From Acidimicrobiaceae bacterium (lineage in GTDB: Bacteria; Actinomycetota; Acidimicrobiia; Acidimicrobiales; MedAcidi-G1): a stretch of DNA of 51,339 bases. The notes under the pieces are model-generated. The model was not told the DNA's origin. It did no database searches and worked only from the letters and a program-made list of their open reading frames with translations. Below are positions 47,848 to 51,339 of the stretch, piece by piece. Where the stretch lies: contig NZBE01000012.1 of the NCBI GenBank assembly GCA_002687745.1, forward strand, positions 6,389 through 57,727, read 5' to 3'. A program made the position numbers and the translations under genes. The stretch's first letter is position 1. Every line of letters begins with the position of its first letter.

Positions 47848-49116
47848 TCAGCGCTCGCGGCGCACCAGGTCCTCGAAGGTCTCGCGGGCCACGACGAGAC
47901 GGGCCTCCCCTTCCGAGACGAAGACCACGGCGGGACGCAGCACCTGGTTGTAGTTGGAGCCCATCGAGTGCCCGTAGGCGCCGGTTACAGGGGTGGCGAT
48001 CACATCGCCGACGACCAGGTCGTCGGGTACGAAGCCCTCGCGTACAAGCAGGTCACCGGATTCGCAGTGCTTTCCTACGAGGCGTACCGCCCGAGGCCTT
48101 GCAGCGGTTACCGCTCGTGGAAGGAACGTCTCGTACCCCGAGCCGTAGAGGACGGGGCGGGGGTTGTCGCTCATGCCGCCATCCACGGCCACATAGGTGC
48201 GTAGGCCGGGAAGGTCCTTGACGGTTCCGACCGTGTAGAGCGTCACCGCTGCAGAAGCGGCGATCGCCCGGCCCGGCTCTGCAGAAACCCTGGCGGTCAC
48301 CCCGGCGGCGTCACAGACCGCCATGATTCCCTCGGCCCATTCGGTAATCGTCGGTGCACTCTCACCCTCAACGTACGCGACGCCCAGGCCACCCCCTACC
48401 GAGAGCTCGGGCAGGCCGAACGGACCGGCAAACCTGGTCATGACCTCAACCGCACGCGAGAACGCACCCACCTCGAACACCTGGCTTCCGATGTGGAAGT
48501 GCAGGCCGACCAGGTCTACCGAGTCGGCAACAGCGGCACGTTCGACCGCGACGGCTGCCAGACCGGTCGAGACCGTGAATCCGAACTTTGAGTCGTCCTG
48601 TCCTGTCGAGACGAACTCGTGTGTGTGGGCCTCGACCCCCGGGGTGATACGCAGCATCACCCTCGGAACCGCGCCCGTTTCGGCGTGGATGGCGTCCAAC
48701 CGGTCCATCTCGTCGAACGAGTCGACGACGATCGTCTCCACGCCTGCCTCCACTGCCATCGCCAACTCGAGGTCGCTCTTGTTGTTTCCGTGCATTACCA
48801 GCCGGTCGGCGGGAACCCCCGCATGCAGCGCCATGAAGAGCTCTCCGCCGGTGGATACATCAATGTGCATGCCCTCCTCATGGGCAAGCTTCGCCATGGC
48901 AGAACAGAGGAAGGCCTTGCCCGCGTAGGCGACCCCGTCACCGAATGCCGCCACCGCCTCCCGGCACCTGGAGCGCAGATGATCCTCGTCGTAGACGAAC
49001 AGGGGTGTCCCGAACCGGTCAGCCAGGTCGGCGAGGTCGCAGCCGCCGACGGACGCCCTGCCGCCGTCGACGGTCGTCGTGTCGGGGAGCAGGCCCAGTG
49101 GAATTGGCCCGGCCAT
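47848..49116 (-). CDS. lysA: Diaminopimelate decarboxylase
   Basis: 422 aa from ATG 49116, whose first base shares the stop of argS (TGATG, 1-base overlap). It makes lysine from meso-diaminopimelate. The PLP lysine is K67 in VAYAGKAFLC, GLHFHIGSQV and VSAEPGRAI bind phosphate, and the second subunit's Cys is in KHCESGD. YGHSMGSNYNQVLRP is the usual C-terminus. The longer frame upstream lies within argS and is not used. Confidence 0.97.
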   Translation of the reverse strand: MAGPIPLGLLPDTTTVDGGRASVGGCDLADLADRFGTPLFVYDEDHLRSRCREAVAAFGDGVAYAGKAFLCSAMAKLAHEEGMHIDVSTGGELFMALHAGVPADRLVMHGNNKSDLELAMAVEAGVETIVVDSFDEMDRLDAIHAETGAVPRVMLRITPGVEAHTHEFVSTGQDDSKFGFTVSTGLAAVAVERAAVADSVDLVGLHFHIGSQVFEVGAFSRAVEVMTRFAGPFGLPELSVGGGLGVAYVEGESAPTITEWAEGIMAVCDAAGVTARVSAEPGRAIAASAAVTLYTVGTVKDLPGLRTYVAVDGGMSDNPRPVLYGSGYETFLPRAVTAARPRAVRLVGKHCESGDLLVREGFVPDDLVVGDVIATPVTGAYGHSMGSNYNQVLRPAVVFVSEGEARLVVARETFEDLVRRER

Positions 49117-50747
49117 CAGGCCTCCCCGCCTTCTTCTCGCCACATCTCCTCGGGTGCTCCGACACCAAGCAGGTCCAGGGCGACAACGAAGCCGATGCGG
49201 ACTCCCTCGACCAGCCACAGCCGAGCATGGGAGAGGCCCTCGTCGATGCCGTCGCCAATGACTCGGCAGTCATGGTAGAAGCCGTGGAAGGCAGAGGCCA
49301 TGTCCCGCACCCACGTGGTCACCTGATGTGGTGCCTGCTCGCGACAGGCGCGCAGAACCGTGTCTGGCAACTCGTGTAGCGCACGCAACAGGGCCAGTTC
49401 CCGCTGATGCCCGAGCAGGGACAGGTCGACCCCGTCGATCGGAGGCCGCTCGATGCCGGCCTGCACAGCCCGGGCCACGACGGAGTGGATCCGTGCGTGC
49501 GCGTACTGCACGTAGAACACGGGGTTCTCGTTGACCCGGCTGGCAACCAGGTCCAGATCGAAGGTCTGCTGCGAGTCGACCGAGAACAGCAGGTAGGTGA
49601 AGCGGGCAGCGTCGGCACCGACCTCGTCAACCACCTCGGCCAACTCGACAATTTCGCCTGTGCGCTTGGACAGCCGCACCTCTTCGCCCCCGCGCCGAAG
49701 GCTGACCATCTGGGTAATGGCGACCCGCAACTCGGAGGGGTCATGCCCCAGCGCGTGCATGGCGGACTGCATGCGGGCCACGTAGCCGTGGTGGTCAGCC
49801 CCCCAGACGTTCACGAGCCGATCGGCACGTTGGAACTTGTCGCGGTGGTAGGCCACGTCGGGCAACAGGTACGTGAACTGGCCATCGGACTTGACGAGCA
49901 CCCGGTCCTTGTCGTCTCCGTGGTCGCTGCTCCTCAGCCACGTGGCACCGTCGTCTACATACACGGCCTCTTGTGCCCGAAGGTCGGACATGACCTCGTC
50001 GATGGCGCCGGACTCGATCATCGACCGCTCGCTGAACCAGGAGTCAAAGCGGATGTCGAGGCTCTCGAGAACGCTGCGCTGGTCTGCCAGCGCCCGCTCG
50101 TACCCCCATTCCAGCGGGTCGACCCCCTCGGGCATCTCACCTGCCCACTCACGGATGTAGTGGCCGTGGTAGCCACCCTCGGGAACATCGTCACCGGCGG
50201 CAGCGGCTGCCAGGGAGTCGCCGAACAACTGCATCTGGGTGCCACGGTCGTTGATGTAGAACTCGCGGGTCACCTCGTGGCCACAGCGCTGGTAGAGCCT
50301 GGCCAGGGAGTCCCCGTAGCAGGCGCCCCTGCCGTGGCCCGCGTGCAGCGGCCCGGTCGGGTTCGCACTGACGAACTCGACCATGACCGACTGCCCTCTA
50401 CCGACGTCATGGGACGCCCATGCGTCAGACCCGGCAGAGACCACGTCGACCAGTACCTCGTGGAGCCACGAGTCAGCAAGTCTGAAGTTGACGAACCCGG
50501 GACCGGCAACCTCCACTCCCGTCACGTGCGGCGGTGGAGAGTCCTCCAGGGCCTCGGCGAGCGCAGTACCCAATTCCCGGGGATTGCGACCCGCCGCCTT
50601 TGCCGAGGCAAGGGCGGCGTTCGTGGACCAGTCACCGTGTTCGGGGTTCGCCGGCCGCTCAAGGCTGATCCCGGTCGGCAGAGGGTCGACGCCCAGTTCG
50701 ATGAGCGCAGACCGAACCGATTCGATGAGGATGTCGCGAACGTCCAT
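49116..50747 (-). CDS. argS: Arginine-tRNA ligase
   Basis: 543 aa from ATG 50747. Class I synthetase with SANPTGPLHAGHGRGA (HIGH-like motif HAGH) and RLSKRTGEIVEL at the KMSKS-like position, normal for ArgRS. The N-terminal Add-1 domain (GDWSTNAALASAKAAGRNPR) and the C-terminal helical anticodon domain ending VALDLLGV are complete. It charges tRNA-Arg. It starts the argS-lysA-hom-thrC operon. Confidence 0.97.
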   Translation of the reverse strand: MDVRDILIESVRSALIELGVDPLPTGISLERPANPEHGDWSTNAALASAKAAGRNPRELGTALAEALEDSPPPHVTGVEVAGPGFVNFRLADSWLHEVLVDVVSAGSDAWASHDVGRGQSVMVEFVSANPTGPLHAGHGRGACYGDSLARLYQRCGHEVTREFYINDRGTQMQLFGDSLAAAAAGDDVPEGGYHGHYIREWAGEMPEGVDPLEWGYERALADQRSVLESLDIRFDSWFSERSMIESGAIDEVMSDLRAQEAVYVDDGATWLRSSDHGDDKDRVLVKSDGQFTYLLPDVAYHRDKFQRADRLVNVWGADHHGYVARMQSAMHALGHDPSELRVAITQMVSLRRGGEEVRLSKRTGEIVELAEVVDEVGADAARFTYLLFSVDSQQTFDLDLVASRVNENPVFYVQYAHARIHSVVARAVQAGIERPPIDGVDLSLLGHQRELALLRALHELPDTVLRACREQAPHQVTTWVRDMASAFHGFYHDCRVIGDGIDEGLSHARLWLVEGVRIGFVVALDLLGVGAPEEMWREEGGEA

Positions 50748-50776
50748 TGGGCTTGTCCAGCGGGCAGGTGGCGGCA

Positions 50777-50791
50777 CCGGTGGATCACCGG
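50777..50791. other. Six-pair hairpin upstream of argS
   Basis: CCGGTG-GAT-CACCGG forms a perfect short hairpin in the 89-base space between argS and the selenoprotein candidate. There is no U-run after it on either strand, so it is at most an attenuator or weak terminator. Confidence 0.3.
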
Positions 50792-50836: not shown

Positions 50837-51337
50837 CTATTCGACGCCCGCTGCGGGTATGGCCGCCAGGATCTCGGCAACCGGCGGGTAGTCGCCTACC
50901 GCCCTGCCAACGTGCGACCACACGACACGGCGTTCTCGGTCCAGGATCACCACAGCTGGTCGGTCCCCGGTGTGGGGTCGACTGACCTTCCCCTGCTTCT
51001 GCCTGAACATCCCGACAAACAGGTTCCTGATCGAACGCCACCCCATCAGCTCACCCTTGGAGAGCTTCTGGTCGAGTCCCAGCGCGCTTCGCAACGTGCC
51101 GCCCGGGTCCAGAAGCAGGGGGAACGGCACACCGCCGTCCATTAACCGCTGTGCCTGGAAATCGGCTGCGCCGCCGACCGCCATCACGGCCACATCCCTT
51201 TCAGCGAACTCTCCGTGGTGTTTGCGCAACTGCGCGAGTAGCTCGAGGCAGGGGGCTCAACCGTAGTAACGGAGCACCTGGAGGACCAGGTAGGTCCGCT
51301 GCCCTGGGTCGACGGCAACGGGGGACCCGTCGGGTGC
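50837..51337 (-). CDS. Peroxiredoxin-like (AhpC-TSA_2) protein with in-frame UGA, candidate selenoprotein; 5' end outside window
   Basis: Reading from 51337, the frame gives APDGSPVAVDPGQRTYLVL, then QVLRYYG, a TGA at 51257-51259, then APCLELLAQLRKHHGEF and on to a TAG at 50837-50839. Both sides of the TGA belong to one redoxin domain: the strand before it ends in RYYG and the helix after it is LELLAQLRK, and PFPLLLDPGGTLRSALGL and RPAVVILDRERRVVWSH complete the fold. In AhpC-TSA_2 members the equivalent site is CxxC, so the UGA sits at the first Cys and C follows three residues later (U-A-P-C). It would reduce peroxides. A TTG start at 51229 would delete the active site. Confidence 0.7.
51224..51235 (-). 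promoter_or_regulatory. Candidate bacterial SECIS hairpin
   Basis: The minus-strand sequence GCGCAGTTGCGC pairs GCGC with GCGC around an AGUU loop. The loop begins about 25 bases after the UGA and has G at its second position, which fits the general bacterial SECIS description (stem-loop just downstream of UGA with an early loop G). The stem is short (4 G-C pairs). A competing fold (CGAG-CUA-CUCG) lies just before it. Confidence 0.45.
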
Positions 51338-51339
51338 CG

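Follow-up and report, generated by a model that had tools for sequence, protein, structure and literature searches.

Known selenium-dependent redoxins and their relatives

Animal SelL, which comes from aquatic eukaryotes, carries a UxxU motif. The prostamide/prostaglandin F (PGF) synthases of the PRXL2 group (9us9, 9usa) have the same fold as the protein described here, and the human RxFGCxxCR motif aligns with its R-Y-Y-G-U-x-P-C. The human enzyme is a CxxC protein, whereas the present one is a bacterial UxxC protein with a predicted SECIS in its coding region. Classical selenocysteine (Sec, U) peroxiredoxins (PxxxTxxU) share the AhpC/TSA domain, but the present gene lacks PxxxT and its Sec begins a UxxC motif.

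A 2026 list of prokaryotic selenoproteins includes a Prx-like thiol:disulfide oxidoreductase (PF00578, UxxC or UxxU) and a "Redoxin family protein" (PF08534, UxxC) (PMC13188914, Table 1). The protein studied here has the same Pfam domains and the UxxC motif, a comparison made by domain and motif only. The cd02970 peroxiredoxin-like (AhpC/TSA) selenoprotein likewise has Sec at the first motif position, although its motif is UxxS rather than UxxC (PMC13188914). The NCBIfam model NF040769 (SelL_rel_redox, "SelL-related redox protein") covers the core of the family; it is not named in PMC13188914. The present protein and its same-genus relative score 77–80 bits against it, below its cut-off of 120, and their YYGUxPC motif sets them apart as a divergent subgroup from the RHFGUxxC type of NF040769. 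Literature searches on NF040769, on SelL-related proteins and on Acidimicrobiia selenoproteins gave nothing specific, and no dedicated selenoproteome paper was found for the lineage in the literature searched. Because UxxC redoxins are listed in PMC13188914 and NF040769 covers the family core, the protein is a divergent member of a recognised and widespread kind of bacterial selenium redox protein, and it is no surprise in principle.

Gene structure and position

The window, which is the whole stretch of DNA analysed, comprises 51,339 nucleotides from an Acidimicrobiaceae bacterium (contig NZBE01000012.1). The host is a metagenome-assembled genome (MAG) of 1.85 Mb in 38 contigs that is 89% complete. 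The features discussed below are as follows.

50837..51339, minus strand: coding region of the predicted UxxC redoxin selenoprotein, open with TGA read as U, with AhpC-TSA, Redoxin and SelL_rel_redox matches and full-length homologues
51257..51259, minus strand: in-frame UGA, predicted Sec, first position of U-A-P-C; TGA in 52 sequences (the window's included) and TGC/TGT in Cys homologues
51248..51250, minus strand: TGC codon for the resolving-type Cys of UxxC, read from the sequence and invariant as Cys in the family alignment
51221..51238, minus strand: predicted bacterial SECIS hairpin CUCGCGC-AGUU-GCGCAAA, based on covariation, consensus fold, TTG bias and a synonymous null
50839-50837, minus strand: TAG that terminates the UxxC redoxin frame
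50837..51229, minus strand: 130-amino-acid fragment started at TTG, without the active site, from the table-11 gene call
49116..50777, minus strand: argS, downstream neighbour on the same strand with an ordinary TGA stop, identified from sequence; same order in the relative L034

The preliminary description of this locus had proposed one continuous redoxin frame across a TGA, with the motif G-U-A-P-C and a true TAG stop, and this frame is present on the minus strand from 51337 to 50837. The TGA at 51259-51257 is its sole interruption, and the surrounding motif reads R-Y-Y-G-U-A-P-C. The same description had foreseen that automatic calling would begin at TTG 51229 and lose the active site; the table-11 call indeed gives the 130-amino-acid fragment from 51229 to 50837. 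Its hairpin, GCGC-AGUU-GCGC at about 22 bases after the UGA, also exists and begins 21 nt after it.

The window ends at the end of the contig (C11, 57727 of 57727), and the start codon is absent from the assembly. About 14 codons including the ATG are missing from the 5' part, where the closest relatives begin ATG ATG GTT CCC. The gene is preceded in close relatives by an EamA-like transporter and a YbjQ-like open reading frame (both named from sequence), and it is followed by argS (1269-2930 in L034). The gene occurs in four of seven same-genus genomes, the window's included. No copy was found in the other same-family genomes searched, and no relative was found in plasmid and viral-contig searches.

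Conservation of the in-frame UGA

A class-level search of 395 genomes gave 92 strong matches, down to an E-value of about 4e-32. Exactly one in-frame TGA is found in 82 of them and no stop in the remaining ten, all of which carry TGC or TGT at the UGA site. Cys is the only residue seen to alternate with Sec at this position. Among the sequences whose site is unambiguous, 52, the window's being one of them, have TGA at the identical codon, and order-level homologues of only 22–32% identity keep it at exactly the same codon. The recurrence of TGA at one codon in dozens of homologues is far beyond chance.

The preliminary description had treated a real Cys codon in close relatives as evidence against its proposal. 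At this position the same-genus relatives (95, 83 and 80% identity) also have TGA, not a Cys codon. This result bears on the possibility that faulty sequencing or assembly turned a TGC or TGT into the UGA. The window is a MAG contig with the gene at the contig end, and Cys homologues do exist, both of which would fit an error; against it, not only the same-genus genomes but also homologues in many families carry TGA there. Since independent genomes have TGA at the same codon, sequencing error is untenable and was ruled out, leaving it a vanishingly small probability.

A true stop, leaving either a decayed pseudogene or a protein restarted at TTG 51229, would be compatible with the table-11 frame of 130 amino acids and with a window hairpin that is not exceptional when taken alone. 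However, the protein upstream of the UGA is conserved together with the rest, and homologues down to 25–30% identity keep residues on both sides of the codon, as the preliminary description required. G19, R38, Cys/Sec42 and Cys45 are invariant or nearly so in the family alignment, and the strong homologues have no other stop within the domain. A pseudogene was rejected because 82 of the 92 homologues have one TGA and the other ten have Cys codons at the same place; termination at this codon is thus very improbable.

The family tree contains about seven changes between Sec and Cys, at least four of which are forced by well-supported branches, and the Cys members are nested inside Sec clades.

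Selenocysteine machinery of the host

The genes for Sec insertion named in the preliminary description, selA, selB, selD and the tRNA-Sec gene, are all present in the host genome. On contig C20, selA (397 bits) lies next to selB (272 bits), and the same contig carries tRNA-Sec (67.5 bits), called by ARAGORN as SeC with anticodon tca. selD (361 bits) lies on contig C5 (L021, 1501-2421, plus strand) and has an in-frame TGA in SHGAGUGCK; judged from this motif, the host SelD is very probably a selenoprotein itself. selA is present in all 11 genomes of the relatives set that have a TGA homologue (window's included), but it is also found in 77 of 100 relatives, and its presence alone is weakly discriminating.

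A second peroxiredoxin gene of the host (L107, C2:56670-57050, minus strand) matches PF00578 at 99.6 bits and has an in-frame TGA at PKASTPGU. By this motif, it is classed as a classical PxxxTxxU Sec-peroxiredoxin.

The presence of a UGA-decoding tRNA might also reflect a genome-wide reassignment of UGA to an ordinary amino acid such as Trp or Gly. That tRNA, however, is tRNA-Sec, accompanied by selA, selB and selD, and it is Cys that takes the place of the TGA in other homologues. In addition, argS, lysA, hom and the following open reading frame of the window (named from sequence) all end normally in TGA. Genome-wide reassignment was ruled out by these ordinary genes ending in TGA (four window frames checked), and its probability is as negligible as that of a sequencing error. 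The sequence evidence indicates that the gene very probably encodes a selenoprotein, in which UGA 51259-51257 would be decoded as Sec. The host SelA/SelB/tRNA-Sec/SelD system would carry out this decoding, and the hairpin just downstream of the UGA would act as a bacterial SECIS that recruits SelB.

The predicted SECIS hairpin

According to the published bacterial SECIS model, the loop has 3–9 nt with a G in its first two positions, the stem has 4–16 bp, and the element lies 16–37 nt from the UGA (PMC13188914). The window hairpin fits this geometry with its AGUU loop, 4-bp stem and 25-nt spacing from the UGA to the loop. It has a frame of seven pairs with a 4-bp GCGC/GCGC core and a C-A mismatch. 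The hairpin alone folds at -6.6 kcal/mol and the 61-nt region at -13.8 kcal/mol with an extended lower stem, while the published model asks for -7.5 kcal/mol or lower, a value that the window sequence attains only when flanking pairs are included. Single-sequence folding was no better than shuffles (z = +0.35 for 61 nt; z = -1.4 for the isolated hairpin), and Rfam gave no SECIS match at the hairpin region. The hairpin is unremarkable in its own sequence, and therefore the support for it is comparative.

The window hairpin is weaker than those of its relatives, and the Sec relatives tested gave -9 to -15 kcal/mol. At the same offset, the relatives have 7-bp stems of differing sequence around the same AGUU loop, for example CUCACGC-AGUU-GCGUGAG, CUUCUGC-AGUU-GCAGGAG and GCGGCGC-AGUU-GCGCCGC. 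Among 25 distinct homologues, 87.4% of cells were paired against 78.9% in shuffles (0 of 500 shuffles reached this value), and five of the seven hairpin pairs showed double-sided changes. The covariation score was 0.291 against 0.147 in shuffles and was not reached by any of them. The sequences are related, so these shuffle values and the Fisher value given below are not strict probabilities.

The hairpin columns also encode the conserved residues A-Q-L-R, and synonymous codons were therefore resampled as a null. In 52 Sec sequences, pairing was 4.63 against 3.32 (sd 0.14), above all 2000 synonymous-codon resamplings, whereas the ten Cys sequences remained within the range of their own synonymous null. 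Of 24 non-redundant Sec genes, 22 use TTG for the Leu in the loop, whereas in the remainder of these genes TTG accounts for 95 of 922 Leu codons (Fisher p 4e-19). None of the seven Leu-bearing Cys homologues has TTG in the loop, and in the nested Cys pair L048/L051, which has an otherwise similar loop, the codon is CTG. Protein constraint accounts for part of the hairpin conservation, but the resampling result and the preference for TTG point to a constraint beyond coding.

The HFGULTC and HLAULPC subfamilies do not fit the AGUU stem register. Since these members fall outside it, one register averaged over all subfamilies outperformed slid registers only moderately. In HFGULTC and HLAULPC proteins, the SECIS may use another register, with a stem and loop of its own. 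The weak stem in the window genome and the misfit of other subfamilies could also mean that the gene encodes a selenoprotein whose AGUU hairpin is kept for coding only, with the functional SECIS elsewhere or more extended. The covariation and synonymous-codon tests across the family speak against this, as does the change of the loop codon from TTG to CTG in the nested L048/L051 pair. A SECIS elsewhere is therefore unlikely, although it is the most plausible of the alternatives considered, and the AGUU hairpin is the preferred candidate.

Domains, fold and proposed function

With TGA read as Cys, the protein matches AhpC-TSA (PF00578) at 35.9 bits (8e-9), over the gathering score of 26 bits, and Redoxin at 31.7 bits (1.5e-7), also over the cut-off. 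AhpC-TSA_2 (PF13911) matches at 24.6 bits (3.5e-5), under its gathering score of 27 bits, and is matched at 1e-5 or better by 42 of 51 family members. The 130-amino-acid fragment alone falls under the cut-offs of all three models. NF040769 is the only close NCBIfam model and matches the window protein nearly full length at 77.2 bits, below its curated cut-off of 120. All 51 aligned family members match NF040769, nearly full length where shown, and some Sec members pass the cut-off (121.1 bits for L053 and 127.2 bits for L031).

An AlphaFold2 model of the full-length same-genus protein has a pLDDT of 91.3 and a pTM of 0.88, with the Sec position (residue 42) at the N terminus of the first long helix (residues 43-54). 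The best PDB sequence match is human prostamide/PGF synthase 9us9 (1.8e-16), in which CxxC aligns with UxxC, and 9usa is among the best structural matches (TM 0.72–0.80). The modelled fold suggests that the product is an AhpC/TSA-fold redoxin of about 180 residues that resembles prostamide/PGF synthase (PRXL2-like). The label "peroxiredoxin-like" in the preliminary description holds for the fold. UxxC matches the CxxC of PRXL2/prostamide-F-synthase, not the classical peroxidatic TxxC/TxxU, and the classical Sec-peroxiredoxin motif PxxxTxxU is absent from the window protein, which has R-Y-Y-G-U-A-P-C instead.

The fold and the UxxC motif point to a thiol-disulfide or peroxide reductase activity. 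The protein is proposed, at somewhat better than even odds, to reduce peroxides or disulfides in a thiol/selenol-dependent way through its U-x-x-C active site. Sec would attack the substrate first, the Cys three positions further along (Cys45) would resolve the selenenic or mixed selenosulfide intermediate, and a thioredoxin-type donor would re-reduce the Se–S bond. Sec insertion, SelB binding, the catalytic cycle, the substrate and the electron donor are all inferred. The substrate reduced by prostamide/PGF synthase, the closest solved relative, is an endoperoxide. By analogy, the present protein might plausibly act on an organic peroxide or an endoperoxide; it might equally well be a general reductase of disulfides.

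The YYGUxPC clade could form a distinct and unnamed subfamily of selenoproteins within this actinobacterial class, lying below the NCBI cut-off, systematically truncated in annotation and acting on a substrate of its own; the analogy with prostamide/PGF synthase would suggest, for example, endoperoxides of lipids or other organic endoperoxides. This proposal is tentative and is held at slightly less than even probability. As a case from comparative genomics, the locus shows cleanly how gene callers truncate a selenoprotein, which is useful for annotation. The switching between Sec and Cys, accompanied by loss of the loop codon of the predicted SECIS, offers natural pairs for testing the benefit of selenium to a PRXL2-type redoxin.

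Related redoxin groups

Several related groups have an in-frame TGA of their own. The HFGULTC and HLAULPC members (L065, L067, L069-L075 and L087; L031, L033, L078, L079 and L090) keep the Sec UGA. Another group of related redoxins from genomes of the class (L099 and L101-L105) has an in-frame TGA in LRH(F/H)GULF(P/R/Y), without a Cys three residues on; its motif suggests a separate Sec subfamily that lacks the resolving Cys. A further related group (L097, L098 and L100) has an in-frame TGA in RG(Y/F)(A/L)UPFCR.
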